Shown here one piece after another: positions 5,099 to 34,500 of a DNA stretch of 37,729 nt. Within the stretch, counting starts at the first letter, position 1, and every line of letters begins with the position of its first letter. The DNA is from a virus: IMG/VR virus record IMGVR_UViG_3300030329_001244, positions 1-37,729 of that record. The stretch is one strand, 5' to 3'. The notes beneath the pieces are model-generated. The model did no database searches. It saw only the letters and a program-made list of their open reading frames with translations, and was not told the DNA's origin. The position numbers and the translations under genes are program-made.

Positions 5099-5508
5099 GG
5101 TATTTTATAAAAGATATATTAACAAAAAGAGATGCAAAATGTTTATGTAATTTAAATGTAGATAAATATGACTTTAGTAATAGTATTATGAAAAAGATTA
5201 CAAAAAAAATAAAAAATGTTATTGGGGATATTTCTTTATCTAAACCTAGTTATTACAATATAGATAGCTCTCAAAATGGTCATAACTGGCATAAGGATAC
5301 TGGGACACATGGTCATATGTTATGGTGCAACTATGGAGTTAGCATTCTTTTAAAAAAATCAGAGGGTGGTTTGTTTAAATACAAAAATCCATATAAAACA
5401 TATAACCAAGAAGAACATTATTTAAATGCTATCATACATTCAAGTGATGAATGGCATATGGTAGAGCCATCAAAAAAAGGAAGAACAGTTTTGTTAATGT
5501 TTTTATAA
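5095..5508 (+). CDS. 2-oxoglutarate/Fe(II)-dependent oxygenase-like protein
   Basis: This 137-residue protein fits a minimal double-stranded beta-helix dioxygenase. The HxD pair is H66-K-D68 in HNWHKDTG. The distal ligand is H121 and the 2-oxoglutarate-binding arginine is R130 in HMVEPSKKGRT, with the usual nine-residue spacing. GVSILLKKSEGG matches the core strands. Prolyl-hydroxylase-like members hydroxylate proteins or small molecules; the substrate here is unknown. The start is TTG 5095, because an in-frame stop lies directly upstream. The gene sits between the two terminase genes, an unusual place for an enzyme, and could act on a capsid or terminase protein or simply be carried there. 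The N-terminal 50 residues are short for the family, so other cupin-fold proteins remain possible. Confidence 0.7.
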   Translation: MRYFIKDILTKRDAKCLCNLNVDKYDFSNSIMKKITKKIKNVIGDISLSKPSYYNIDSSQNGHNWHKDTGTHGHMLWCNYGVSILLKKSEGGLFKYKNPYKTYNQEEHYLNAIIHSSDEWHMVEPSKKGRTVLLMFL

Positions 5509-5511
5509 TCA

Positions 5512-7005
5512 ATGGATTACGAAGAACAATATAGTCAAATGCAGGCTTTAAAAAAGCTTCGAAATAACATGGCATTGTTCGGAAGGCACTGCTTCCCTAC
5601 AGCCCTTAGAAAGAGTACACCACCTTTTCATAAAGATGTGTATTCTTCTCTAGCTGACGACAACAAAAGGAGGGTGTTAATTGCAGCTCCCCGTGGTACA
5701 GCCAAGTCTACAGTTACCACCCTCATCTTCCCTTTATGGAGAGTGGCTTTTAAAACAACAAATGAAGATTTATTTATTGTTATAATTTCTGAATCCCAAA
5801 CTCAGTCTATAAACTTCTTATCACGTATTAAATATCATTTAACACATTCAGATAAATTTAGAGAAATATTTGGAGACCTTGGTCCTAATACAGCTAAAAG
5901 ATGGACTAACAATGATGTAGTACTTGCTAATGGAGCTAGGATAATAGCTGTAGGTACTGGACAAAGAGTTAGAGGATTTATTGAAGGAGATACTCGTCCT
6001 AATCTTATTGTAGTAGATGATTTTGAATCTGAGTTAAATGCATACACTGCAGAAGCTAGAGCAAAGAATAGAAAATGGATTACAGAAGCTGTTATACCAT
6101 CATTATCAGATGAAGGTAAAATAGCTATGATTGGAACTGTAATATCAGAAGATTGCTTCTTATACTGGGCAAAAGATTCAGAAGCTTGGAATACATTGTG
6201 GTATTCTATATGGGATGAAGATGAAAAAAGTATTTGGCCTGAAAGATTTCCTAAATCTAGGATAATGGAAATTAAAAAAGAGTTTGCTTCTGTAGGTAAC
6301 TTAAATGGATTTTATCAAGAGTATATGAATATAGCTCAATCTCCAGATATGGCTCCATTCAAACCAGAATGGATTAAACTACACCATTATGATTATAAAC
6401 GAATAGATGGGCAAAATTGCCTAGTTAGGACAAAAGGTGGAGAAGAAGAAATTAAACCAGTGGAAGTCTATTGCGGAGTTGACCCTGCTAGCTCCCTTTC
6501 TTCCACTGCTGATTATTTTGTTGTTACTACAATTGGTATTGACTGTGATAATAACAAGTATATTATTGATATATATAGGGATAGAATTTCTCCTGCAGAA
6601 CAGCCTCAGAAGCTTATTGAAGTTTTTAAGAAGTATAGGCCTAGGAGGATGAAGATTGAAACCGTTGGTTACCAGGAAGCTTTAAGAACTGCTGTAAGAG
6701 AACTTATGTTAAAAGAAAGTTTATTTATACCAGGATTAGAAAAAGGTGTAAAACCAAGAAACAGAAAAAGTGAAAGACTTTTATCACTTGTTCCCTTGTT
6801 TGCAAAAGGTACTTTCTTTTTTAGACCACAAGATAATATAGCACAGCAAGAATTTTTAAGCTATCCTAGAGGTAAACATGATGATGTTATGGATGCAATA
6901 TGGACAGCTTTACATGGTGCTAGGCCTTCTAGAATTAAAAGTTTTGATAAAGATGATAATTATTTAAACAAACCAAAGAAAAAGCTTGATTGGATGACCC
7001 TTTAG
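5512..7005 (+). CDS. terL: Terminase large subunit (ATPase-nuclease packaging motor)
   Basis: This 497-residue motor pumps DNA into the prohead through the portal and cuts it. The ATPase domain is N-terminal: Walker A APRGTAKST (59-67), Walker B LIVVDD (165-170), and a candidate coupling motif MIGTV (about 206-210). The RNase H-like nuclease domain is C-terminal, with acidic residues D324 (VYCGVDPASS) and the D457-D458-x-x-D461 cluster (GKHDDVMDAIW). Length and domain order are normal for a complete large terminase. The ATG lies four bases after the oxygenase stop, and the upstream sequence is AT-rich without a clear Shine-Dalgarno. Packaging strategy (cos, pac or direct repeats) cannot be read from this alone. 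Confidence 0.96.
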   Translation: MDYEEQYSQMQALKKLRNNMALFGRHCFPTALRKSTPPFHKDVYSSLADDNKRRVLIAAPRGTAKSTVTTLIFPLWRVAFKTTNEDLFIVIISESQTQSINFLSRIKYHLTHSDKFREIFGDLGPNTAKRWTNNDVVLANGARIIAVGTGQRVRGFIEGDTRPNLIVVDDFESELNAYTAEARAKNRKWITEAVIPSLSDEGKIAMIGTVISEDCFLYWAKDSEAWNTLWYSIWDEDEKSIWPERFPKSRIMEIKKEFASVGNLNGFYQEYMNIAQSPDMAPFKPEWIKLHHYDYKRIDGQNCLVRTKGGEEEIKPVEVYCGVDPASSLSSTADYFVVTTIGIDCDNNKYIIDIYRDRISPAEQPQKLIEVFKKYRPRRMKIETVGYQEALRTAVRELMLKESLFIPGLEKGVKPRNRKSERLLSLVPLFAKGTFFFRPQDNIAQQEFLSYPRGKHDDVMDAIWTALHGARPSRIKSFDKDDNYLNKPKKKLDWMTL

Positions 7006-7040: not shown

Positions 7041-9248
7041 TTGGCAGATAACGAGAAAAAAACACCAGAGATAGTAAATGAAACATTAAGGATTTTTAAG
7101 GATTACAGCAAAAAGCGTGATGCTTGGGCTCAACAAGCCAAAGAAGACAAAGAGTTTCGTTTAGGTCGTCAATGGACTAAAGAACAATCAGAAACATTAG
7201 AAGCTAGAGGACAAGCTCCAATAGTTGTTAATCGTATTCACCCAGCAGTTGAAACAGCAAAAGCTATGCTTACTGCTAATAGACCGTCATTTAGGTGTGC
7301 GCCTAGAGAAGATTCAGATAGAAAAACAGCAAATGTAATGAGTGCATTACTTACTTATATGTATGATATATCTGACGGTAGAACTATCATAAGACAAGCT
7401 ATAGATGATTACTATGTAATGGGAGTAGGATATATTAATGTATATCAAGACCCTATGATGGATATGGGTAAAGGTGAAGTTTGTATGCATGATATAGACC
7501 CATTAGATGTATATGTAGACCCTAATAGTAGAAATAGATTCTTTGATGATGCAGAAAATGTTATTGTTTCTCGTTTATTTAGTAGAGAACAAGCTAAAAA
7601 ACTTTATCCTAAATACAAAAAAGAAATAGATGATGCTAATAGTGAGCAAGACTTTAATATGCCTGAAACAGGTAGAGATAATGAAAGTAGAGTATTTTTC
7701 CCAGAAGATGTAGGTTTATTGCACGAACAAAGTGAATATGTTAGAGGATATGAAAGATACTATAAATTAGAGGTTGAAAAAACAAGAACTTATGAATCCT
7801 TTAGTGGTAATGAAGAATTATTAGATAAAGAAGAATTTGAACAGTACATACAACAGCCAGCTTGGATAATACAAGGCCAAGTTATTGTTGACCAAGAACA
7901 GGCTCAACAAATATCTGCTCAACTAATGGCTCAGTATGAAATGCAAAAAGAAGAAGCTATGGCTATGGAACAGCAAAAAATGACTCAAGCAGGTCTTCCT
8001 CCTGAAGCTGAAATGCCACAAATAGATATTCAACCACCTCAAATTGAACAAACAGACTATCAAGGTCTTATATTAAAACAGTTAATAGAAATAGTAAAGA
8101 TAAAAGTAACAAGAGTAAAACAATGTATTATTGTTGGAGAAACTCTTCTTTATTCTAGAATACTTCCTATAGACCAATATCCTGTAGTTCCAATATGTAA
8201 CCTGCATACTAGAACACCTTATCCTACATCAGATGTAAGAATGGTAAAAGGTTTACAAGAGTATATAAACAAAACTCGTTCTTTAATTATTGCACACGCT
8301 ACTACAAGTACTAATACTAAAATACTAGTTCCTGAAGGTAGTGTAGATATGAAAGACTTTGAAGAAAAATGGGCACAGCCTGGTGTTGCTATACCTTATG
8401 ACCCAACAGATGGGGCTCCTGTAACGGTTCAACCTAGTCCGCTACCTAATGAGCTTTATCAAAATGAAACTACAGCTAAAAATGATATTGACCATCAATT
8501 AGGTTTATATGAAATGATGATGGGCAATTCTCAGGCTGCCCCACAAACTTATAAAGCTACTATATCTTTAGATGAATTTGGTCAACGAAAAATTAAATCT
8601 AAATTAACAGATATAGAGCAAGCATTAGTAAGGGTTGGGCAAATTGCAATACCATTAATGCAACAATTATATAGTGTAGAAAAAACATTTAGACTTGTTA
8701 ATCCAAACAATTCTATGAGTGAGTATGTTGTAAATAAAAGATTATACGATGATAAAACTGGAGAAGTTCAAGTATTTAATGATATAACAGTAGGTAAATA
8801 CGATGTTATAGTTGTAAGTGGAAGTACATTGCCTACTAATAGATATGCTGAACTTGAGTTTTATATGGATGCATATCAAAAAGGACTTGTTGATAGACAA
8901 GAAGTTCTAAAGAAAACTGAAATATTTGATATTGAAGGTGTTATGCAACGTACTGATGAAATACAAAAATTACAATCTATGGTTCAACAACAACAAGAGC
9001 AGATTAAAAACTTACAAGGAGACTTGCAAAGTAGAGACAGAGAAGCAGTTAACCTTCGTAAGAAAGTAGAAGTTGAGAAGTTTAAAGGAGATTTAGACAA
9101 AACATCTAATAAAGCTAAATCTGCTGGAGTCTTGTTCGAAAAAAGATTGGATGACAATTTAGCCACTGTTAAGCGTCAGATTTCTGATGCTAGCAAAAAA
9201 GAAGGCTCACCCTCTCGTGGCAAAGAGGCAGCTAAAAATAGGAAATAA
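7041..9248 (+). CDS. Portal protein, P22-like
   Basis: This 735-residue protein would form the dodecameric ring at the capsid vertex through which the terminase pumps DNA. The N-terminal section EFRLGRQWTKEQ ... PIVVNRIHPAVETAKAMLTA is typical of P22-type portals, as is the DIDPLDVYVDPNSRN segment. A Gln-rich loop lies in the middle. The C-terminal 90 residues are a charged coiled coil (IQKLQSMVQQQQEQIKNLQG onward) that could form the barrel extending into the capsid. The TTG start at 7041 gives the expected MADNEKKTPEIVNETLRIF N-terminus; no ATG serves. Shine-Dalgarno complementarity is weak. Order terminase-portal-scaffold-capsid supports the call. Confidence 0.92.
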   Translation: MADNEKKTPEIVNETLRIFKDYSKKRDAWAQQAKEDKEFRLGRQWTKEQSETLEARGQAPIVVNRIHPAVETAKAMLTANRPSFRCAPREDSDRKTANVMSALLTYMYDISDGRTIIRQAIDDYYVMGVGYINVYQDPMMDMGKGEVCMHDIDPLDVYVDPNSRNRFFDDAENVIVSRLFSREQAKKLYPKYKKEIDDANSEQDFNMPETGRDNESRVFFPEDVGLLHEQSEYVRGYERYYKLEVEKTRTYESFSGNEELLDKEEFEQYIQQPAWIIQGQVIVDQEQAQQISAQLMAQYEMQKEEAMAMEQQKMTQAGLPPEAEMPQIDIQPPQIEQTDYQGLILKQLIEIVKIKVTRVKQCIIVGETLLYSRILPIDQYPVVPICNLHTRTPYPTSDVRMVKGLQEYINKTRSLIIAHATTSTNTKILVPEGSVDMKDFEEKWAQPGVAIPYDPTDGAPVTVQPSPLPNELYQNETTAKNDIDHQLGLYEMMMGNSQAAPQTYKATISLDEFGQRKIKSKLTDIEQALVRVGQIAIPLMQQLYSVEKTFRLVNPNNSMSEYVVNKRLYDDKTGEVQVFNDITVGKYDVIVVSGSTLPTNRYAELEFYMDAYQKGLVDRQEVLKKTEIFDIEGVMQRTDEIQKLQSMVQQQQEQIKNLQGDLQSRDREAVNLRKKVEVEKFKGDLDKTSNKAKSAGVLFEKRLDDNLATVKRQISDASKKEGSPSRGKEAAKNRK

Positions 9249-10163: not shown

Positions 10164-10219
10164 AATAATATATTCTACTCGAAGGTCTACGCGACAGCTG
10201 AGAGAGAATTAAATTGATT

Positions 10220-10223
10220 GGAG
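10220..10223 (+). promoter_or_regulatory. Shine-Dalgarno fixing the capsid gene start
   Basis: GGAG stands six bases before ATG 10230 and selects MANFYSG as the N-terminus, rather than the in-frame TTG at 10218, which overlaps the site itself. Confidence 0.6.
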
Positions 10224-10229
10224 ATTGAA

Positions 10230-11627
10230 ATGGCTAACTTTTATAGTGGTCAAGCTGGTGCTGATGCGCAAGGCGTTTCGATTGACGATACACGTAGAGT
10301 CTTTAATTTTGGGGATAGAGTTGCAGAACTCGCTCCTCAACAAAGCCCGTTTTTCGTTTATCTAAATAAAGTTGCAAAAAAAGCCACAAACGACCCTGTA
10401 TTTAAATTCCTAGAACAACGTCATCAATGGCAAAGACGTAATTTCTTGGTACAGTCAACAGAAGTTTTAGCTGATGGAGGAGCAATTACCGCTAATGGTA
10501 GTGCTACTTTAGCTGCTGATGAAGACTTAGTATTACATTGTAAATATGACCAATATGGTAAAATTGCTACAAGTGAACCTTGTAATTTTATTATGCCAGG
10601 TGCTATACTTGCAATAAAAGCAGACGATGGAGAGGTATATAGATTTAGAGTAGATGAAAATGCTGCTTTTACATCTAGTACATCTTCTTATTCTGCTACA
10701 TCACCAGCAACTGCTCAAGTTCACCATGATACAAATGGTGTAACAACTATCAACGCAGAAGCTTGTATAGCTTTACAAGATATTCCTGAAGATACGACAA
10801 TAACAGCAGGAAATGCTGGAGCAGTAATTGGTAGTTCATTTGCTGAAGGAACTGATAGCCCTATAGGTTGGGAAGATAAAATGTATGATAGAGAAGGTTA
10901 TACTCAAATCTTTAAAACAGGTATGAGTATCTTTTCTGGTACATCTCTTGCTACTGAATATAGAGGTATTAAAAATGAGTTCCAAAGAATATGGACTGAT
11001 AAATTGATGGAACATAAAATGGATATTGAACAAGCTATGTTATTTGGTTATGGTGCTACTTTAAATGACCAGTCTACCAGTGCTCCTGTTAGACAGTCGT
11101 GGGGAATAGTTCCTTACACTAATACATATGGTAAAGTATACAATATGAGTTATTCATCATCTGGATATGATGCTTTCTTAGATGCAATGGAAGATTTCTT
11201 TGCGCCTGAAGGTGGAAACAGTGGAAATAAACTTGTATTAGCTTCAAGAAAAGTAATCACTTACTTAAATAAATTAGGCAGTGGTTCTTTCATGAATAAT
11301 ACTGTAGGTTCATCTCAATACAGATTAGATGTAGATAATGTTCCTGGTCAATTTGGTCATACAGTAACAAAAGTAAATACTATTTTTGGTAATTTACACT
11401 TTGTTGCTGAACCTTTATTAAGAGGACCATGGGAAGATTACTGTGTTGCAGTTGACCTTGGAAATGTAGCTTATAGACCACTTGTGGGTAATGGTATTAG
11501 TCGAGATACCTTCATTGAAACTAACGTTCAAGATAACGGTGTTGATGGTCGACAAGACCAAATCATTACTGAAGCTGGTCTTGAAATTAGTTTACCTGAA
11601 ACTCACGCAATTCTTAAGTTTTCTTAA
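10230..11627 (+). CDS. Major capsid protein, HK97-fold, SU10-like
   Basis: This 465-residue protein would build the icosahedral shell. It follows portal and scaffold directly. The N-terminal region (FNFGDRVAELAPQQSPFFVY, then FLEQRHQWQRRNF) and the central region (LMEHKMDIEQAMLFGYGA followed by SWGIVPY) resemble SU10-type coat proteins of short-tailed phages. The part between about 80 and 210 looks like an inserted beta-rich domain. The C-terminal part (VAVDLGNVAYRPL ... TEAGLEISLPETHAILKF) is the usual P-domain end. The start is ATG 10230 on the strength of its Shine-Dalgarno site. The short leader before it (10164-10229) contains an imperfect 12-base direct repeat. A strong AGGAGG for the next gene follows the stop. 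Confidence 0.88.
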   Translation: MANFYSGQAGADAQGVSIDDTRRVFNFGDRVAELAPQQSPFFVYLNKVAKKATNDPVFKFLEQRHQWQRRNFLVQSTEVLADGGAITANGSATLAADEDLVLHCKYDQYGKIATSEPCNFIMPGAILAIKADDGEVYRFRVDENAAFTSSTSSYSATSPATAQVHHDTNGVTTINAEACIALQDIPEDTTITAGNAGAVIGSSFAEGTDSPIGWEDKMYDREGYTQIFKTGMSIFSGTSLATEYRGIKNEFQRIWTDKLMEHKMDIEQAMLFGYGATLNDQSTSAPVRQSWGIVPYTNTYGKVYNMSYSSSGYDAFLDAMEDFFAPEGGNSGNKLVLASRKVITYLNKLGSGSFMNNTVGSSQYRLDVDNVPGQFGHTVTKVNTIFGNLHFVAEPLLRGPWEDYCVAVDLGNVAYRPLVGNGISRDTFIETNVQDNGVDGRQDQIITEAGLEISLPETHAILKFS

Positions 11628-16626: not shown

Positions 16627-19600
16627 ATGTCTATACAAGTAAAAGAAGTAAGTAAGTTCGATAAAGGACTTCATGGGAGTATATCTGAACAAGATATATC
16701 ACCAGAGGCTGCATCTTTATCTTTAAATATAGACCCTAATTCTGAATATGGTGCATTAAGAGGTATATATGGAGATAAGATATTATCTGCTAATGGGTGG
16801 GAACCTCCTAGACGTTTTACGTTTAATATGGAGTTTTTCAATAATAATCTTGATGCAAATGCTCAAGACGGATTGATTCAAGTTGCTTTATTTGAAAAAA
16901 AGTATTTCATGGTAAATACTTATGACAAACAATATTTACTTGTATTTGTTTTATTAAATAGTTTAGTAGAAACTTATGATTCTAATACAGGTACTGGTTT
17001 TATAGGTGGTACAGCACCTGTTGGGGAGTTTGCAAATAATATAGGAATATCGCCAAATGCATTTGCAGATACTACTGAATATAATATTGCTAACGACATA
17101 AATAGAAGTTTTAATGTAATACCTGTCTTTTTAGAGAACTCTATAACAGGAAATGGTACATTGATTAAGGTTTCTGATTTAGCAAGTGCTGTAAAAACAA
17201 GTTTACAAGACTTTACAAAACCATCTGGTACTTTACAAGATATAAGTGGATTTGACAATTATTTTACTTGTTATAGGCCAGATACATCAAATGATAAAGA
17301 TGGAAGGTTGGTTGCTCAAAGTAACTTTTATGGAGATATAGGAATACCATTTCTTCCTAAAATAGAATTTCCAACTGGAGGAAATATTCTTGGATGGCAG
17401 TCTAGTGATACAGCAGGTCTTAGATTACCAGACCATAGTATATATAGTAATCCTACTAGTTATATAAAAGGAAATGGTTTTACTCCTCCGCAATCATTCG
17501 ATGGAACAGATGGTAATGAAGAAGTTGTTTTTGATTTTATAAAAATAAAAGCATTTAATTCAAAAGGTAATTTAAATATATTAGGAGTTACTAAATCTCA
17601 ACAAGTTCAATTATTTGAAAGTGCTGGACTTAATTCAGAAACTAGTGCAAAAATTTTAGGCTCAGTAAGTATTTCAGAATCAAATTCAGTTTCTATTGAA
17701 CAAAGGAATAAAAATTTATATTTAGGTGTTGGTGATAATGTTGGTAGTTCAAGTTTATGGATAGGATATATTAGTAGAAATCAATTAGGTAAAGATATAG
17801 AAGGTTACCAATTAGAAAAAGCTTCTTTAGAAACAATATCTCCTAGTACTAGTTCATTTAATTACGATAATATAGTAACTCATACTTTACATCATGGATT
17901 AAACTATAGAAATGGAGGAATTGCAGGAGCAGCAAGCCTTTATTGTGATAAAGCTGAAGATGGAAGTGACGTTGACCATTATGGAACCAATATAACTAGT
18001 GGTAGTTTTCAAAGAACTGTAAATGGTTGGGTAAAAGAATGTTTAGATATAAATGCTGGAACTGACCCAACTAAATTTAGTGACTTTAAATTAGGAATGA
18101 TATTTAGAGTTAATTTAGGTGCTGCATTAGTTGCTGGAGATATTGGAACAGCTCCTTCTTCTGGTTTATCTGCTTTTGATTATTTAAGAGAATTAAAACA
18201 AATAGCAAAAGGTGATTTTAGTCCTACAGGAGAATTTTCTAATCATGATGAAGGTTCTTTAACTGGAAAAGGTGGTACAGGAGAAGCGTTACATGATGGG
18301 GATTTATTTCAATTAGTTCATGCTCCATCTCAAGATGATGGCGATGTAAGTAATGATATAATTGACCATGCAGATAATGGTGGATATGGTAAATTTATAG
18401 ATTCTAATAATACTTCAAATATGTTTAGATTAGTATATGTAGGAAGTTTATTTGGTAAGGAGGATAGTGGAACTAATCATCCTTCTTTTGCAGATTCAGA
18501 TGATGCCTATTGTGGTATACCAGCTTATGCATATGCACATATAAATGATGGGGAAACATTGCATAGAGTTAAATTATCTTCTAGACCTGATTTAGATTTT
18601 GAAAGTTTAGGAGATGAAGATAGTGGAATATCAACTATAGCTACATCTTCTGATGGCTTATTTGTTAGCAAAAATAATCCGAGAGTAGATTCTATTAATT
18701 TAAGAATCGAATTAGGTGTTTCAGATTTCGTTATTGGAACTATAGCTGAATGCAAAAGTTGTGATGGTGAAGGCGGTTTTGGTGGTGAAATATCATCTAG
18801 TAAAATAAATTATTTTACAGGCCATGGTAAATTATGGGTAACAAATAAAAATGAACATAATTTTATTTATCTAGTTGATGTTACTAATTGGGATAGATAT
18901 AATAGTTCAAACCCTAGATTAAAAGCTAAAAGAATAGAACTTAATTTTGGTAGGATACATAGACATTTAATATCTGATGATTCAACTGATTATGGAAATG
19001 GTTTAATTAGATTATGGGAAACTCAAAATGGAGTCTCTCAAGATGATGAAGCACATTTTCAAGATTATACATGGAGTCCAGAACCAGACGGTCAATATAT
19101 AGCTTCTGTTTGTGAAACATATTCTCATTTACCTCATATGGGAGACGGGGCTTTGGGTGGAGAAAATAGTGGTGATGGTAAATGGAGAGTATGGGTAGAA
19201 TATAAAAAAACAAATAATGCGGCTCACTATAGATATGATTTATTCTTGTTTAATTTTAGACCACAAGGATGGGATGGTGGAGGCTCTGATACTGGAGAAG
19301 ATTTATCAGGTGATGCAATAGTTCATATGTTTGACAAAACTCCTCCATATCAAGAATGCCAAAAAGTTAGTTTAAGTGCTAATATAGGTGGTCATATGAA
19401 TATGAGCGATAAACCATTTAAAACCATTTATTATCCTTTTGAAAAGTTTGCTATAAAAGAAATGGCTACTATGACCTCAAATGGAAATTTTCAAGAATTT
19501 CTGGACAGTAATTGGGGTCGACATTCTTTAATACGAGCTAAAGGGAATGGTAATGTTGGTAGTACAAAATTATTACATAATGCATCTGCTTCAACTAATA

Positions 19601-22600
19601 TTGTTTATGACAATCTTTTATTTAGAAATCCTTCTGGTGAAATACATTGTGTAACGCCAGGTTTATACGATTGGGCTGCACAAGATTCTGATAATGATGT
19701 CTTCTATAGAAGGGCTATCCCAACATCTAAAATTTGGCTTGGTTGTAATTTAGGCTGGGTATTAGATGATGGTAGAGAATATGTTCCAGTAAGACATACT
19801 TTAAAACCTTATTATAAAAAATGGTATTTTACTGGCGATACAGGAAGCACAACTATACCGCATGCAGAAGAAGATAATTATATGGCATCTGGTAAAAAAA
19901 CATTTACAGCTCATGTAGTTTCTTCTTTTGGTAAATTAAGTGGAAAATTTGTAAAAAATGGAGGTTCTTTAGCAAGCGGTAGAGAAAGAGAAAATGATTT
20001 TGGTGGTTCTAGGTATAGGGCTTCGAACTATAGACAATGGTTTTCTAGAAATCAAGGAGAATTAGAACATTATGAAAATCAATATACAATGTTTACTTTA
20101 CATGATTCTCCTGTTGCTATAGAAACATATTCTGTTGCAAATACTCCTTATGAGGTTCAAGGAAAACCAATGATAGACCATGATACTGAAACAATTTATC
20201 TTCATAAGTTCGCAAATAACGACCATCGAACTAGAATTTATCAAAATGATACAGAAGCTGGGTTTATGGGTAGCAGGACTAATGACGAAACAGGAACAAC
20301 TCCAGATACTATAAATCATAGTTCAGTTTCAGCTACAATGGGCTATAGTAAATATAATCAATATAGGTATCATCATGCAAATAATGGTACTGATAATGTA
20401 GCTAGTGATACAGCTACAACAGGAGAAAATGAAAGCTATAGTAATGGAAATACTTATGGTTACGGAGGTCAGTATCATGGCCAAGATGGATTTGGGCACT
20501 ATGTAAATATAACTCAAACTTGGGCTTGTAATCAAGATTATATTCCACCTTCCCATGATATAGGTGGGTCTTATAGATATATTGATGGCGATTATGAATT
20601 TTATGACCCAAGCAACTATTTATCATTAAACTTCAGAAGCCATGGCTGGGGTGATGGAGCTAGATTTAAAAATAGTAACCATAGAGGAACTAATCCTGGT
20701 GACCAAGATGGTAGATGGTGGGATGGAAACTATTTTAAGTCTTCTGTTGAAAATGAAAGTAATGCTACAATGTCAAGACATGGAACAGGTTATTTTACAT
20801 ATGGTCCAAATCAAGAAGGAACTTTAGGTATAGGATATCATGACCGTTATAGGGATGATGTATTAGTATCTGATTCATCTCGTCATTTTAAATTAAAAAA
20901 TTCTCTTTGGCACAATAGAAGGATAGTACATTGTTGGTCAACTACTTGTTTAACTGATTCTGTTTTAAACTATAATTTTTTGGGAAGAGGGACTACAGAA
21001 GAGGATACTAATGGAAATGATAAATCACATTTTGACCACAGAGAATGGGGTTTATGGAAAACTCCAAGGTGCTCTTTTAGAAAACTTGTTATTCCAAGTA
21101 CATTTGGAACTGATGCAGACCTAAGAAATGTAGATATAGTTAGCTGGTCAGAAAGAAATGTTGTATATCCAAACAAAAATACACATTTAACAAATGACCA
21201 AGTAAAAGTAAAATCTGGATTTCTTTTATCATTTAAACTTCCAAATGCAAATGTTTCTGATTTAGATAATAGTGCTACTGGCGTTATAGTTTATGAACCT
21301 AAAAATAGTACATATTTTACTTATAGGAATAATCCTTCATCTACCATGCCATTTGATGACGTGAGTCCTAAACAAGCTCATTCAAAAGCAGCAATAGATT
21401 TTCTTAGAAGCCTTTATTTTACTGTCAGTATTGTTGATTCAGATAGTTCTACAACAACTTCAAATTGGAATATTTATTCAAATACTGATTTAATAACCAA
21501 AAATATAGTCCCTGGTTTATCTGATGACACTTCAAGTAATTATTCTGGAGGTAATAGTACAAATAGAAGAGAACAAGCTGGAACATGTGCATTTCAAGCT
21601 ACAAATGATGTTTATTGCCCAGTAACAATATCTCAAGATGGTTCAGAATCAAAACAAACTTTAGGTATTTGGTATAGAGCTCAGTTTACAGAAACTCCAT
21701 CTACTCAAGGTTTTTTAAATGGAATGACTACCAGAGAATACCCTTATTATGTTTTTGATAGGTTTTGGAATTACTGGAGTGTTGACGAAAATACAGGTTT
21801 TGATAGAGGCGGGAATACTGCAAATCAATTTATTACAGAAGGTTGGGGTAGTACAGCTGGTGTATCTGCAAACTTTGATAATGCAGATGATGCTTATCCT
21901 ACTGGTTATGAAGGAGGGCAAACCAATAATGCTTTACTTACAACGTCTGGAGCTCATGTTAAAAAAAGTAGTCCAGCTTTATTAGCTCTTGAAGGTAATG
22001 ACCCAGATGCTATTGAAAATCCTGAATTTCCACCTGGTCAAGTTTACTACAAATTTAGTTTTTTATATGACGGATTTCAAGAAAGCCCTTTAAGTTTAAA
22101 TGCATTCCCTATTGATGTTGAAGAAGCTTCAAGTTTATTAAGATTAAAATTAACTATATCTTCAGCTGAAGATTTGGGTCTAAATTCAAGAGTAACACAT
22201 TTAAATATTTATAGAAAAAATAATCCTAAAGAATTATATAGACTTGTAAGGTCTGTTAATTTAAGTAATAATAAAGATTCTTGGACAGATGAGGATGGCT
22301 ATAAAGTATTAAATTTTAATGATGAACAAAGAATGGCTTCTTATGAAGGTATAAATGGAGTTCCAGAATCATTAACTAATTTTACTCCTAATTATAGATT
22401 ATCTTGCCAATTAAACGACTTTCTATTTGTAGGAGGTATTTATCATCCAAATATAGAAGATGGTGACCATTTATTACTTAGGTCTAAACAAGGTAGATTT
22501 TCTGTATTTGATTGGTCTAATGACTTCTTAGATATACCTACTAAACCTGTAGCAATGGCAGCTTTTGCAAATAGAATTTGGGTATTTGATAATAATAATA

Positions 22601-23940
22601 TTTTCAAAATAAATCCTACTGGACTTTATATTGAAGACAGAACTGAAGGTATTGGTATTTTAAATTCAGATTCATATATTGTTACGGACATGGGAATGTT
22701 TTGGTGTGATAGAAATAATATTTATAAACATGATGGGCAGAAAATAAATCAAATAGGTACTTCTATATTAAAAAATCATGCTAATCCAGAATGGCAATTA
22801 GGATATGTTGATGCTGTAAATAAATCTGAAAAATTAGGTTATACACCTAGGATTGGATATGACCCTATAAATCAGTGTATATACATCTCTGTTCAAGGGT
22901 TTAGTAAATCTTTATTAAGTTATAAAAAATATGATGGAAGAATTTATTCGTATGATATAAAACAAGATAGATGGGATTATTATGATTCTCCTGCTGTAAA
23001 AACAATGACAACTGATAGTGCTGGCAATGTTTTAATGAGTGATGGATTTCAAATATATAACTATAGAAGAGATAAAAAAGCCCCTAAATCTTTTTCTTGG
23101 GATAGTAAAACATTTCAACTTGGAAGTGCTAATTATAAAAAAACATTAAAATCATTAAAATTTAATGGAGATTTATGTTTATGGAGGTTTAATAATTCAG
23201 CTAATTTAATAAATGAAACAGCTTTAGATGATTTAGCTGAAGAGGTTCCTGAATTTGAAGTAGGTGATAATGAGCATCAATTAGAAGTTACTGGAGCTTC
23301 GGAAAGTGATGATTTAAAAGTATATGTAGACGGGATTTTACAAACAATGAGAATTAAAAATAAAAATCCTGTAATAGGACGACCTATAGGAAATGATTCG
23401 ACAGGGGAAATATATGCTGTAGAAACACATTTACCTAATTTTGGAACAAAAGGTTTTGGTATGACATATGAAGATTCTTTTTCATTAAGCCCCAATTCTT
23501 GTCCTGAATTTTTAACTTGGCCTAATAGTCAATTTCAAAGACAAGCTTATGAAGGAGAGCTTCTTGATTTAATGCATTTACATAGAGGAATGTATATTTA
23601 TTTTAGAGGAACTGATGAAAAAGGAATGGTTCAAGAAGAAATAGTAAGAATAAGGGATATTAAATTTAATTGGTTTAATACTTCTGAAGGAATTAATGAC
23701 CTAAATACAGGACCTGGTGCTATTGAAGTAAGAACTTGGAGAGGGCAATTGGGTACAAAGGCATATGATTGGACTAATGAAAATATGCTAGCTTCTAAAA
23801 TAGAACCATTAAGACCAGCATCTCCTACCTTTTTATTTCCAAGAGGAACAAAAGGTAACACAGTAAAAATATCCTTGCAAAATCAAAAATCATTTATTGA
23901 TTCTTTTGCAATGTCTTATAGAGTAAAAAGATTTAAATAA
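16627..23940 (+). CDS. Giant tail protein, nozzle-like with a very large insertion
   Basis: At 2437 residues this is the largest complete gene here. The N-terminal motif (FDKGLHGSISEQDISPEAAS, then SLNIDPNSEYGALRGI) is like the opening of podovirus nozzle/tail-tube B proteins, which begin with a G-x-x-x-S-x-x-D element. The C-terminal 640 residues repeat that family's layout: an FN3-like unit (about 1802-1915: VYYKFSFLYDGFQESPLS ... NIYRKNNPKELY) and a propeller-like series of strands (about 1919-2145: FLFVGGIYHP, AFANRIWVFDNNNIFKIN, GMFWCDRNNIYKHDG). Between about 300 and 1800 lies a long Gly/Asn/His/Tyr-rich beta domain with no recognised family, perhaps receptor-binding. The nozzle would close the tail and open on host contact. 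The stop overlaps the fibre gene start (TAATG). Confidence 0.72.
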   Translation: MSIQVKEVSKFDKGLHGSISEQDISPEAASLSLNIDPNSEYGALRGIYGDKILSANGWEPPRRFTFNMEFFNNNLDANAQDGLIQVALFEKKYFMVNTYDKQYLLVFVLLNSLVETYDSNTGTGFIGGTAPVGEFANNIGISPNAFADTTEYNIANDINRSFNVIPVFLENSITGNGTLIKVSDLASAVKTSLQDFTKPSGTLQDISGFDNYFTCYRPDTSNDKDGRLVAQSNFYGDIGIPFLPKIEFPTGGNILGWQSSDTAGLRLPDHSIYSNPTSYIKGNGFTPPQSFDGTDGNEEVVFDFIKIKAFNSKGNLNILGVTKSQQVQLFESAGLNSETSAKILGSVSISESNSVSIEQRNKNLYLGVGDNVGSSSLWIGYISRNQLGKDIEGYQLEKASLETISPSTSSFNYDNIVTHTLHHGLNYRNGGIAGAASLYCDKAEDGSDVDHYGTNITSGSFQRTVNGWVKECLDINAGTDPTKFSDFKLGMIFRVNLGAALVAGDIGTAPSSGLSAFDYLRELKQIAKGDFSPTGEFSNHDEGSLTGKGGTGEALHDGDLFQLVHAPSQDDGDVSNDIIDHADNGGYGKFIDSNNTSNMFRLVYVGSLFGKEDSGTNHPSFADSDDAYCGIPAYAYAHINDGETLHRVKLSSRPDLDFESLGDEDSGISTIATSSDGLFVSKNNPRVDSINLRIELGVSDFVIGTIAECKSCDGEGGFGGEISSSKINYFTGHGKLWVTNKNEHNFIYLVDVTNWDRYNSSNPRLKAKRIELNFGRIHRHLISDDSTDYGNGLIRLWETQNGVSQDDEAHFQDYTWSPEPDGQYIASVCETYSHLPHMGDGALGGENSGDGKWRVWVEYKKTNNAAHYRYDLFLFNFRPQGWDGGGSDTGEDLSGDAIVHMFDKTPPYQECQKVSLSANIGGHMNMSDKPFKTIYYPFEKFAIKEMATMTSNGNFQEFLDSNWGRHSLIRAKGNGNVGSTKLLHNASASTNIVYDNLLFRNPSGEIHCVTPGLYDWAAQDSDNDVFYRRAIPTSKIWLGCNLGWVLDDGREYVPVRHTLKPYYKKWYFTGDTGSTTIPHAEEDNYMASGKKTFTAHVVSSFGKLSGKFVKNGGSLASGRERENDFGGSRYRASNYRQWFSRNQGELEHYENQYTMFTLHDSPVAIETYSVANTPYEVQGKPMIDHDTETIYLHKFANNDHRTRIYQNDTEAGFMGSRTNDETGTTPDTINHSSVSATMGYSKYNQYRYHHANNGTDNVASDTATTGENESYSNGNTYGYGGQYHGQDGFGHYVNITQTWACNQDYIPPSHDIGGSYRYIDGDYEFYDPSNYLSLNFRSHGWGDGARFKNSNHRGTNPGDQDGRWWDGNYFKSSVENESNATMSRHGTGYFTYGPNQEGTLGIGYHDRYRDDVLVSDSSRHFKLKNSLWHNRRIVHCWSTTCLTDSVLNYNFLGRGTTEEDTNGNDKSHFDHREWGLWKTPRCSFRKLVIPSTFGTDADLRNVDIVSWSERNVVYPNKNTHLTNDQVKVKSGFLLSFKLPNANVSDLDNSATGVIVYEPKNSTYFTYRNNPSSTMPFDDVSPKQAHSKAAIDFLRSLYFTVSIVDSDSSTTTSNWNIYSNTDLITKNIVPGLSDDTSSNYSGGNSTNRREQAGTCAFQATNDVYCPVTISQDGSESKQTLGIWYRAQFTETPSTQGFLNGMTTREYPYYVFDRFWNYWSVDENTGFDRGGNTANQFITEGWGSTAGVSANFDNADDAYPTGYEGGQTNNALLTTSGAHVKKSSPALLALEGNDPDAIENPEFPPGQVYYKFSFLYDGFQESPLSLNAFPIDVEEASSLLRLKLTISSAEDLGLNSRVTHLNIYRKNNPKELYRLVRSVNLSNNKDSWTDEDGYKVLNFNDEQRMASYEGINGVPESLTNFTPNYRLSCQLNDFLFVGGIYHPNIEDGDHLLLRSKQGRFSVFDWSNDFLDIPTKPVAMAAFANRIWVFDNNNIFKINPTGLYIEDRTEGIGILNSDSYIVTDMGMFWCDRNNIYKHDGQKINQIGTSILKNHANPEWQLGYVDAVNKSEKLGYTPRIGYDPINQCIYISVQGFSKSLLSYKKYDGRIYSYDIKQDRWDYYDSPAVKTMTTDSAGNVLMSDGFQIYNYRRDKKAPKSFSWDSKTFQLGSANYKKTLKSLKFNGDLCLWRFNNSANLINETALDDLAEEVPEFEVGDNEHQLEVTGASESDDLKVYVDGILQTMRIKNKNPVIGRPIGNDSTGEIYAVETHLPNFGTKGFGMTYEDSFSLSPNSCPEFLTWPNSQFQRQAYEGELLDLMHLHRGMYIYFRGTDEKGMVQEEIVRIRDIKFNWFNTSEGINDLNTGPGAIEVRTWRGQLGTKAYDWTNENMLASKIEPLRPASPTFLFPRGTKGNTVKISLQNQKSFIDSFAMSYRVKRFK

Positions 23941-28561: not shown

Positions 28562-31500
28562 ATGGCTATAAACCCTTATGGTTTATATCAATATGATGAA
28601 GCTCCTGAACAGCCTCAAGGTGACAAGGCCGCTACATCAGAATCCTTTCAACCAACAATATCAAAAGAGCAATTAACTAGCTTAACAAAAGCTTATAAAA
28701 AAACTCCTAATTTATTTGATGAACAATCAAAAGATAAATTAAGAAAGCATGCTATATACTATAATGTCCCTTTCTATGAAGGTGACTTTAGTATAACAGA
28801 TGCTTTAAAGCAGTTTGGTGGTGGATTTATCGAAGGTTTTACTACTCTATCACCTATAGACCATCCTGATAACGAATACGAGGCAATAGCTAGGAATGTA
28901 GGCCATTTACTTGGGTTTGCTCCTAACATGTTAGCTAAACCATTAAAGTTACTTGGTTTAAGTAGAGCAGCTAATGCTATAGGCGGTGTTCGTTCTATTC
29001 CTCTTGGTATAGGTGAGTTTGCTACAAAGAAAGCGGCTAAAGTAATAAACCCAGTATTAAAGACAGCATTAGATGGTAGAGCAAGTGCATCTGGAACAGT
29101 TACTAAGTTTTTAACTGGAGGTGCAACTAAGAGTGTTGTAGAAGAAGGTTTTAAACTTGGTGTTGCTAGTGCTGTAAGTAACTGGAAACAAGGTATAGAT
29201 GGAATGCTTGAAGCTGGAGTAGGTGGTGCTAAATTTGGTGCAGCTTTCGGTGCTTTAGGTAATATAGTTCCAGGTAAAGGCGCTGGTGACTATGCTTTAA
29301 GAGCTGTAGCTGGTTCTTTATATCAAGGATTGCATGCTACACAAAGAGGAGCTACTACTCCTGAACAGGTTTATGAATATTTACTTGGTGCATACTTTGG
29401 TGGTGGAGCAACTGGTTGGAAGCAAAAAGGTGTGCAAGAGTTTATGGTTAGAAAAGAAAAGCAAGCCTATGGTACTGAAGGTAAAAAAGCTGATATTAAA
29501 CTAAGAGTAACTAATGACCCTGAAATGGTTAAAGGTTGGAAGAATTTAGACCCAGAAGTCCAAAAAGAAATTATAAAAGAGATGAATAATCCTAAGAGTA
29601 TTCATTATGACCCTCCTGGTGATGCTGAAGCAAGACTAGCTTTACACGAATATGTAGCTCATAAGATGGGTATTGAGCCTGGTAAGACTACTTTATCTAA
29701 AAAAGGTTGGGAAGAATATGGAAAAATACTTGATAAAGAAGGTACAGAACAAAAGCAAATAGGTTTAGCAGCTCAAACTGAAAAAGATTTAAGTGATATA
29801 TTTAAAGAAAGAAGTGAAATTGTAGATAAACTTCAAACAGAAAGGCTTAGAGTAGACAATTTAACTGGCTCAGAAAGAATCATAGCTAATAAAAATATAG
29901 AAGAAATGGAAAGCCGATTAAATAGGTTGCAAGAAAAAGAAACTAGGCTTTTAGAACTTGAACCTTATCAATTTATAGATAAAGAAACTGATAAGATTGT
30001 TACAGAGGAATTTAGAAATGATGGTAACGATATTGGAATGGTTTCTAATAGAGATTTATTAAAGAAGTCAGAAAAGATAGTATCTGAAAAGTTAAAAGAA
30101 GTTTGGGATAAAGAAAGTTATAGTCCTGCTACAAAAAGAAATGAACTTATCAGACTTACAAATGTAATCGATAATATTGTAAGACAAGAAAAATATTCTA
30201 AAAGAGGACAAAAAGTTGATAGTGAAGCTCTTGTAAAAGAAATTGAAGATACTATTAAATCTACTGAAAAGGTTACAATTAAAGTAGATGAAGGTATAAA
30301 GAATGATTTAAGACAATGGCTTACTCGTAAAAACTTTGGTGAACCAGTAAAGTATTTAAATATAAGAACTACAAAAGATGGTGTTATAGATAAAGAAGTA
30401 GAACTTAGAAAGAGTGATGGATTTACTTTTGCAGGTAATAGGAAACAAAGTATAGAACCTAAGAAAGAGATTCAAAAAGTTTTAGAAGAGTTAGCTGGAG
30501 AAGGTATTGACTCTCATGTTATTTTAGATAACATAACTACAAGAGGTTCTAAAGGTGAGTTTCTTGATATGGAATTGTCTAAGTTTAGACAGAAAGTAAG
30601 TGAAAAGAAATATAACAGTTTTATAAAAGATACTCATAAGAAAATGGCTGAAAAAGACTATTATCCTTATGGTGGTAAAGGTGATAATGATACTATAATA
30701 TATATTAAGAAACATCCTGATATGGCCAAAGGAGAATCAAGAACTTATATAAGACAATACTTAGATAACTTTTTAAAGAAAAAGAATTTTAAAAGGTATC
30801 ATAATCAAGCTTTAAAAAGAAATAAATACTTTAATTCAACTGAGGCAAGAGAACAGTATATAAGTAATATTATGTGGGATTTATCTCTAAATGGTTTTAG
30901 ACCTAAAACTAAAGCTGAATATGATGTAGCGTTAACAAAGCTATTTGAAGGTGAAGGTTACATTAAAAATGCTACTGCTTGGAACAAAAGAAATCAAATT
31001 TGGTTTACACCTACCTGGAATGCTGACAAAGAGTTTGTATCTAATAGTTATAGAGATTATTTAAAAACTTTAAAGGTTAAAGATTTAGATACTATTGCTC
31101 CTGAATATTCAGATGCTATTTTAAAAGGTAATGTAAGATATATTATAGCAAGAGATTTAGACCCTAAGTTATTTAAACTTGTTAAAGGTAAATTAAAAAG
31201 AATTAAAAAGTTAAACAAAGATAGTAAAAATACTGAGTTTAGTGAAAATGTAGATGGTATGACTATTGTAGAAGATAACTATCTTAATACATTAATTAAA
31301 GATAGTGGTTTACCCCAAAGTGGACAAAGCAAAAACTTTATTGTTAGTCCTGATGGAGAAATGGGAGCATTACTTGGTAAACATATGATGCATAGTGCAG
31401 GTAAAGTAGCTTCTAGACAAATGCGTAAAGCTGGTATACAAATGATTATGCAAGAGTCTGCTGTTAAACAAAGAGGCGAAAGACAAATAACAGATTATAA

Positions 31501-34500
31501 TATAAAAAAGGGCAAAGTAGAAATAGAAGACCCTAAGTTAATATATGAAATGCCTGTTGAGCATATTAAATATAGCTACAATGTAAAACAAAGTAATGAA
31601 ATGGCAGGTTATACTGACCCTAAAAATCCTTTTGGAACAAGGCATAAACACGGTATACCTAAACAATTACTAATGGCTATGGGACAAAATACCTTTAAAT
31701 CATTTCCACAAAAGATGATTGAAGATTTCTTTAATGAAACTATTTATAATAAGTTTAAAGGCGAAAAGAAATATAATGACATTCTTATAGAGTATAATGA
31801 AAATCCAAAGAGTAAAACTTTATTAAATATACTAGAAAAGAACATTGATAAACTTGGTATGAACGAACTTCTTTCTATTATAAATGGACCTCCTACTCCA
31901 TTAGCAGATGCTGCTTATTTTAGGTTAATGAAATTAAACAAAGATGCAATATCTTCTAGAGTAGCTGAAGGGGAAATATCTCCAGATGAAGCAGAAAAAG
32001 TACTAGAAAATATGCAAGAGTTTAATAGTGCAACTGATAGAATGGTTTCAGCAGCTCAAGAATGGTCTACAAGAGAAAAAATGGTTGGTAGAGAAGGTAA
32101 TATTAATACCTTATTGTTACACAAATATATAAGACCATATAGATTTCAAGTTATAAGAAACTATGTATTTCAATCTATCAGTAAACCTAAGATAGGTAAC
32201 AGTGGTGTAGCTAGAATGAGAGGTTATGATAAGTGGTTTAGAAATGACCCTAAATTTAAAGAATTAGAGACAAATGATGAGGTATTCTACCTGGATAACT
32301 CTTTCAAAAAAATGCCTCTTAAAACACATATTCCTGGCTATGAAAACATTACTTTAGAGAGACTTTGGAATAACTATAATAATAAAAAGCATAAATTGTA
32401 TCAAAATAAAGATGTAAAGAAGGTATTAAGAGCTTTAACAGTAAGGGTTCCTATGGACTCTGTTAGTGGTGCACAAGCTATGGATTTTGGTGGATTTACT
32501 GGCAGAAATGGTCATGGTATACTAATGCATTCAAGAGCTATGAGAGCTGAAGGTGGCGCTGACCTTGATGGTGATGAAGCTTTTGTGTTCTTTGGCGGTC
32601 GTAAAGGTGCTAAAGGAGGTGGGTTTAAATCTGAATGGATAGAACAGTTCCATAAAAATAAAGATGAGTATTTAGCTAAAGATGGTAGTATTCCTAATAG
32701 AAAAACAGGTTTTGTTCCTGTAGAAGCAAAGGGTAAAAAACTTGTAAAAATAGAAACTGTATCACGGTATACTCCTGAAATATTAAAAGCAAATCCAGAT
32801 AAAGTTTATTTATTTGGAGATAATTTAGAGAAAGTTGGAAGAGGCCCTGGGGCTGGTCAAGCAATTATAAGAGATGAACCAAATGCTTATGGTATTCCAA
32901 CTAAAAAAAGTCCACGATTATTTATGACTGACAAAGAATATGATGCTAATGTAAAAGCTATAGATAAAGCTTTTGCTTCTATACCTAAAGACAAAACTAT
33001 AGTTCTTCCAAAAGATGGGCTTGGTACTGGTAGAGCTCAATTAAAAAATAAAGCACCTAAAACTTGGTCTTATTTACAAAAAAAATTAAATGAATTGAAA
33101 AAAACAATTAAAAAAGAATTTAAAGAAGGGAAAATAACTTACGAAGAGTATTTAACAACTCAAGATAGTTTAAAAGATACTAAAATAGACCCTGATGCTA
33201 GAGATAGTAAAGTATGGCAATATGATAGTGGTTGGAGACAAGAAATATCAGAAAGAGCTGTTGATGGTCGTAACTTACTTGGTGGAACAGTTAGTATGGC
33301 TCAAATATTAAAGGCTTCTCATAATTCTTTACTTGCTTTACCAAATAAAAGTCAAACTTTTACTACTAGAATAAAGGTAAAGGGTAAATTTATACCAGTT
33401 AAAATAACTTTAAAAGCTAAAACAAGTGAAAAAGATTTGAAAGATGCAAGACAATTAGCTTCTTCTATGATAGCATTTACTTCAGACCCTCTTGATGTAG
33501 CTGGTTTAAAAGGTTATGATAATTATTATAGAAAACTAAGTAATGCTTATTTTGATATAAAGGTTGATTCTAAAGTTAAATTAACTGAAAAACAAATAAA
33601 TCAAGCTTTAAAGGGTAAAGATGGTATTATAGGCCAAATGACTGATATAAACTCTGCTTTATATAGTAGAGACTTTATTAATAACAGGTCTTGGGATGCT
33701 CAAAGTATTAAAGAAAAAACATTATCAACTACACTTGATAGTGGACTTGGTTTAGATAAAGCACAAAATACTATGTTACCTAAATTAGGTAAGCTAGCTA
33801 GCTCTATAGAACTTTATGATAGTCCATTTAAGAATATAAACTTACCACATTTAAGACAAATGTATGATGAACATAATAACTTAGTTGATAAATTACCTGA
33901 GTTTAAACAGCTATTAAACAATTTAAGTGTTCCTAGAAACGAACTTCTTTTTAAAATAGCTGAAACTAAACTTTGGGAAAAAGCTAATATAGATAAATAC
34001 TCACATAAAACAAAATTAAAAACATTTAATGCAATAATAAATTCAGAAGGCAGTCCTTTTGCTAAAGGTAGGGGATGGTATGATAGGTTTATTAAAGGTA
34101 AAGAAAATTTAATAGAAAAAAATAGGGAACTTAGAAAAGATTACTTAAAAGAACTTGTTAAATTCTCTGAAGATATGCTAACGCAGGATGTTAGTGATAT
34201 GATATCATTTAGACAGGTTTATCGTTATTATGATGCTGCTGAAGTAGGTCCTGTAGTTTTTAATAAAATGCTTAGAAAAGTAAGTCAATTAAGACGTAAT
34301 AGCTATCTTCAAAGAAAAAACTTAGATGAATCTTATGAAGAAGTTGCAGAAGGTGTACAAGTACCTAAATCAACAGCTGAAATGCTTAGAAAAAGTTTTG
34401 GAGAGTTAACTGTTGAATCTAAGGAAAAAGCTACAACATTAGACCAGTCTACTATTGATGCTGAGATAGCAAACTTTAAAAGAACTTTACCTAATGATAG

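Follow-up and report, generated by a model that had tools for sequence, protein, structure and literature searches.

The window, which spans all 37,729 bases of the record of an uncultured phage, carries a giant gene whose product we regard, over residues ~570–1760, as a single-chain two-barrel RNA polymerase that would be packed into the virion, injected into the host, and there transcribe the early operon of the phage; we put the probability of this reading as a whole at about 0.8. The identification as a two-barrel RNA polymerase is well supported by the catalytic motif, by the invariance of key residues among relatives and by the match of the predicted fold to known enzymes. Catalysis, the use of DNA as template, entry into the virion, injection and action on the early genes are what we infer beyond these data and the position of the gene. 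The principal features are listed in Table 1.

Table 1. Features of the window relevant to the putative polymerase (residue numbers are those of the giant protein)
Feature	Coordinates	Strand	Basis
Terminase large subunit	5512..7005	+	phrog_38, E 1.9e-90
P22-like portal protein	7041..9248	+	PF16510, E 2.1e-71
SU10-type major capsid protein	10218..11627	+	PF17236, E 6.7e-32
Giant ORF, 3056 aa, running off the contig end	28562..37729	+	Reading frame and full-length homologs
Polymerase region equivalent to the model, residues 570-1894	30269..34243	+	Alignment to AlphaFold2-modelled L003 equivalent
Barrel 1 (DPBB-B), residues ~876-1006, with D898, G899, K924, K940, K969; limits approximate	31187..31579	+	Invariance in 101/101 relatives; model strands
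Barrel 2 (DPBB-A), residues ~1204-1349; limits approximate	32171..32608	+	Fold matches; in-register profile match to crAss gp66 barrel 2
Metal loop DLDGD, residues 1334-1338	32561..32575	+	Three D and G invariant in 100/100 covering relatives
Inserted segment, residues ~1387-1523, holding DUF7831 (1401-1507)	32720..33130	+	Pfam, E 1.7e-29
Candidate bridge helix, residues ~1556-1591, with G1569, R1570, L1573, G1574	33227..33334	+	Near-invariant residues; long model helix 862-897

The reading frame is open to the end of the contig and, judging from L001, a full-length homolog of 2918 aa, probably lacks only some 15 C-terminal residues; full-length homologs measure approximately 2,900–3,470 aa. 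Close homologs, about 70% identical, were found on three viral contigs, a profile search recovered 49 loci with identities down to 27%, and a wider profile detected relatives encoded on 211 stretches of viral contigs. A scan of the GTDB genomes revealed no relative of the giant protein, nor did a collection of 50,697 records of isolate phages, where a divergent member used as query gave chance-level matches only. No description of this phage group or of its polymerase was found in the literature searched, which covered few subscription papers.

An earlier note, made from the sequence of this DNA, had read a polymerase signature in positions 31253–33320, that is, residues 898–1586 of the giant protein. 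The motifs named there around the metal loop are all present: GADLDGD at residues 1332–1338, RVPMDSVSGA (1295–1304) and GFTGRNGHGI (1311–1320) ahead of it, and the G-R-N-x-L-G-x-x-V segment after it as GRNLLGGTV (1569–1577). By itself D-x-D-G-D is only suggestive, and since it appears in 4.4% of shuffled copies of the giant protein relatives were needed to judge it. Conservation was counted over 101 non-redundant relatives, 100 of which cover the barrel-2 motif region. D898, G899, K924, K940 and K969 are invariant in all 101, down to 27% identity, as are R1295, P1297, D1299, G1303, G1332, A1333, D1334, D1336, G1337 and D1338 in every one of the 100 that cover them; the metal loop reads GGADLDGD[E/K] across the family. 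At the level of sequence, this conservation confirms that the polymerase signature is real. The first barrel proposed in the earlier note stands in part: DGMTIV is found at residue 898 and K940 never varies, but K948 is not conserved, its position being occupied by proline in 55 of the 101 relatives and by lysine in 13. K924, K940 and K969 are the lysines conserved in barrel 1.

Searches of PDB, Pfam, PHROGs and NCBIfam with the giant protein or its profiles returned no significant match to a known polymerase. Sequence searches having failed to name it, the identification came from comparison of folds. In place of the window protein we modelled residues 566–1765 of L003, a ~70% identical homolog which lacks the DUF7831 insert, using AlphaFold2 and a 39-sequence alignment, and the polymerase region was predicted with confidence (pLDDT 87.3, pTM 0.83). 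Foldseek produced only three PDB chains with E < 0.001, the best being phi14:2 gp66 (2.5e-8), the very structure with which comparison had been proposed, and the others two chains of QDE-1. Ranked by VIA Z-score, QDE-1 came first (17.0; 553 residues, 4.6 A), followed by RDR2 of maize (16.3) and Arabidopsis (13.3), gp66 (11.9 over 825 residues), P74-26 gp62 (11.5), P23-45 gp64 (11.0) and P23-45 gp96 (10.2), with the Rpb1-type subunits of multisubunit polymerases (8–9) next in order. Every one of them is a two-barrel RNA polymerase, and the matches to QDE-1, RDR2, gp66, gp64 and gp96 cover model range 20–1058. In BFVD the nearest entries were unnamed viral proteins (best TM 0.66–0.69), then further unnamed and crAss-type proteins. 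A fold without two double-psi barrels had been named beforehand as the outcome that would count against a polymerase; the significant matches were to two-barrel RNA polymerases only, and together with the invariant catalytic residues they uphold the earlier reading of this region as a double-psi-beta-barrel RNA polymerase.

Going by the strands in the model, K924, K940 and K969 fall on strands of barrel 1 or beside them, and DLDGD comes immediately ahead of a strand of barrel 2. The catalytic magnesium ions would be held by the loop, with the basic side of the active site formed by conserved lysines among these three. Model range 645–954, which includes a long helix at 862–897, matches Rpb1 339–1081, and on these range matches residues ~1556–1591 are predicted to serve as the bridge helix. 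The C-terminal third was modelled with low confidence (pLDDT 62) and had no structural match. Because one moderately hydrophobic segment only was seen, near the C-terminus and in some members, we make no claim of a membrane-pore role.

Families of two-barrel polymerases share hardly any sequence resemblance with one another outside the metal loop (PMC10770324). The whole polymerase region did not match a profile of 39 crAss gp66 relatives significantly (E 0.058). Barrel 2 alone aligned with that of gp66 over 59 columns in exact register, pairing RVPMDSVSGA with RIPNQGQSSN and GGADLDGDEAFIFF with TGSDFDIDKMYVML; the score was 26.8 against a maximum of 19.9 among 52 decoys (P 0.001–0.003). A profile comparison of the bridge helix and trigger loop with gp66 was not significant. 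The YonO profile against the whole region likewise fell short (E 0.15), a test of little power since crAss versus YonO, both accepted members, scores no better. The profile of P23-45 gp64 was in register at the metal loop (E 0.049), while that of P23-45 gp96 gave nothing in register. The Pfam family of eukaryotic RNA-dependent RNA polymerases [PF05183, RdRP] matched two of 39 members at the metal loop inside the giant gene, with E-values up to 0.001; located on the genomes these matches reach 11.4 bits, below the Pfam cut-off of 23.8, and membership of that family was rejected.

Among known enzymes phi14:2 gp66 (PDB 6VR4) is likewise a giant single-chain two-barrel polymerase encoded in a virion gene block. 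Its metal loop reads SDFDIDK, in contrast to GGADLDGD[E/K] here, and in the alignment of gp66 relatives G560, S561, D562, F563, D564, I565, D566 and K567 are invariant; lacking the SDFD-x-DK signature, the window protein was not assigned to the crAss type. The phages differ as well, crAss-like genomes being about 100 kb whereas that of the window belongs to a group of about 50 kb with SU10/P22-like head genes. QDE-1 and RDR2 gave the highest structural scores, yet here we have a phage gene, a giant fusion and no significant sequence match, and the higher Z-scores do not prove closer descent.

Thermus phage P23-45 possesses two single-chain two-barrel polymerases, gp96 and gp64, both with a D-x-D-G-D loop, and gp96 resembles the window protein further in being fused to a giant virion protein. 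In gp96, however, the polymerase stands at the N-terminus of a tail tape measure protein of 5,002 aa, in a phage with a long tail, whereas ours lies in mid-protein (~570–1760 of 3056), in a phage with a P22-like portal and a single polymerase locus found. On this architecture, and with no significant Pfam match to tape measure proteins, a tape fusion of the P23-45 type was rejected; matches to Pfam TMP_3 and SHOCT-like domains, in a helical region, did not reach the cut-off and were disregarded. YonO of the Bacillus prophage SP-beta is also a phage single-chain two-barrel polymerase, with a DNDGD loop, but is free-standing and of 839 aa. The polyvalent phage proteins, into whose frame PMC5512222 places the N4 virion RNA polymerase, offer another parallel as giant proteins of the virion block which combine unrelated domains and are predicted to be injected; the available passages of that paper contain no two-barrel polymerase bearing SLOG, DUF7831 or DUF4326-like inserts.

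The SU10/P22-like head genes claimed in the earlier note are borne out by the Pfam matches of the portal and capsid proteins. In all records examined the gene order is conserved, the head/tail operon (terminase-portal-capsid) terminating at or beside the giant gene. In related records of about 50 kb, an early operon of small genes runs convergent with it, which includes JAB-like and ThiF-like genes, Sak4, a primase-DnaB helicase, endonuclease VII and an exonuclease. In each of 16 records (16/16) the giant gene is matched at one locus only. A search for cellular-type polymerase subunits found none and its control was positive; T7-like polymerases of the N4 virion type [PF00940] gave no match, but here the positive control was equally negative. 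Gene order and the single locus fit an enzyme that is synthesized late and travels in the particle, like gp66 and gp96. The giant protein would be produced together with those of the head and tail, packaged into the particle and injected with the DNA, whereupon the polymerase would transcribe the early operon as crAss gp66 and P23-45 gp96 do. Virion delivery is likely, judging from the position of the gene, the giant fusion and the precedents of gp66 and gp96.

The same fold also occurs in enzymes that are not carried in the virion, such as P23-45 gp64 and YonO, and the window polymerase could similarly be made after infection for later transcription. The register with gp64 at the metal loop agrees with this, but the gene stands last in the head/tail operon, and its product of ~3,000 aa has long non-polymerase regions at both ends, compared with 616 aa in gp64 and 839 aa in YonO; we consider this unlikely. 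Less probable still is a two-barrel fold whose activity has been lost or altered, as in a structural or DNA-translocating virion protein. The large helical extensions would suit such a role, and the activity itself is predicted from sequence and model; against it, relatives down to 27% identity never vary in the three aspartates or in the conserved barrel-1 lysines, for which a non-catalytic scaffold would have no need. That DLDGD arose by chance in a long coiled protein resembling a tape measure has the frequency of the motif in shuffled copies and a weak TMP_3 match, far below cut-off, in its favour, and is contradicted by both invariance and fold to the point where we give it hardly any weight.

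The DUF7831 segment, which the earlier note had overlooked, is cleanly absent from the ~70% identical L001 and L003, and is probably a passenger on the protein surface, in the loop that leads from the catalytic barrel to the bridge-helix region. Three kinds of foreign domain occupy that loop: DUF7831 in the window, L002 and L010; in L033, a domain of the cpYpsA-SLOG kind (E 6.4e-27); and in L084, one resembling DUF4326, whose match (E 1.3e-4) narrowly misses the Pfam cut-off. At other sites in the protein there is an A1S_2505 domain in L041 (E 1.1e-26) and a second SLOG domain in L047 (E 1e-20). SLOG domains of phages are predicted to counter immune signals of the ADP-ribose type, and DUF4326 has been linked to such systems (PMC9503650, PMC7824862). 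Given this literature, and the polyvalent proteins predicted to be injected (PMC5512222), it is a reasonable though tentative suggestion, to which we would give rather less than even odds, that the polymerase, once injected, has a second role in carrying exchangeable domains for counter-defence. If so, one virion protein would, on entry, both set viral transcription going and disable immunity based on signalling.

Two further inserts were noted by eye. One of about 200 aa follows the equivalent of L003 residue 389 in L009, L010, L011, L013, L017, L020, L034, L038 and L042; it has a SGGxxGAD-type start and looks SLOG-like, with no Pfam match in the members tested. The other, in L023, is about 250 aa after the equivalent of L003 residue 728 and appears NADAR-like (YPIKFRGNTYEDAEGAYQAHK), with no Pfam or NCBIfam match.

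Virion two-barrel RNA polymerases have precedents (PMC10770324, PMC7886860), and since the case of P23-45, which lies outside the crAss-like and jumbo phages, is already published (PMC10770324), the window polymerase cannot claim to be first. To the small set of single-chain two-barrel RNA polymerases known so far it contributes a large unannotated branch, the 211 viral-contig stretches, and it suggests that virion-associated two-barrel enzymes are no speciality of crAss-like, jumbo or Thermus phages. As its top structural scores are to the eukaryotic RNA-silencing polymerases, the family should be useful for testing the kinship proposed between these and phage enzymes. The exchangeable domains next to the catalytic barrel would provide a direct and testable link between early transcription and counter-defence.

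In the early operon of relatives the JAB-peptidase-like and ThiF/E1-like genes are adjacent to one another beside Sak4 (L134:2379–4190 in G006, with equivalents in G003, G009 and G014), a pair which is ubiquitin-pathway-like. Strong long-loop hairpins lie upstream of early genes at L134:440–505 and 756–874 (G006) and at L133:4852–4950 and 5187–5346 (G003), and at the same intergenic sites in G009, G014 and G002; their stems show compensated changes between close relatives. Four stretches of relatives, from the early region or the ends, gave no match to a known RNA in Rfam. The hairpins could be promoters, terminators or processing sites.

The structural block of the window contains a second giant gene (16627–23940) whose 2437-aa product is conserved in relatives at low identity; its matches in PHROGs are all weak, and Pfam gave none. 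Near the start of the window, positions 14–2713 specify an 899-aa protein with a Laminin_G_3/concanavalin-like domain, possibly a receptor-binding or fibre protein.
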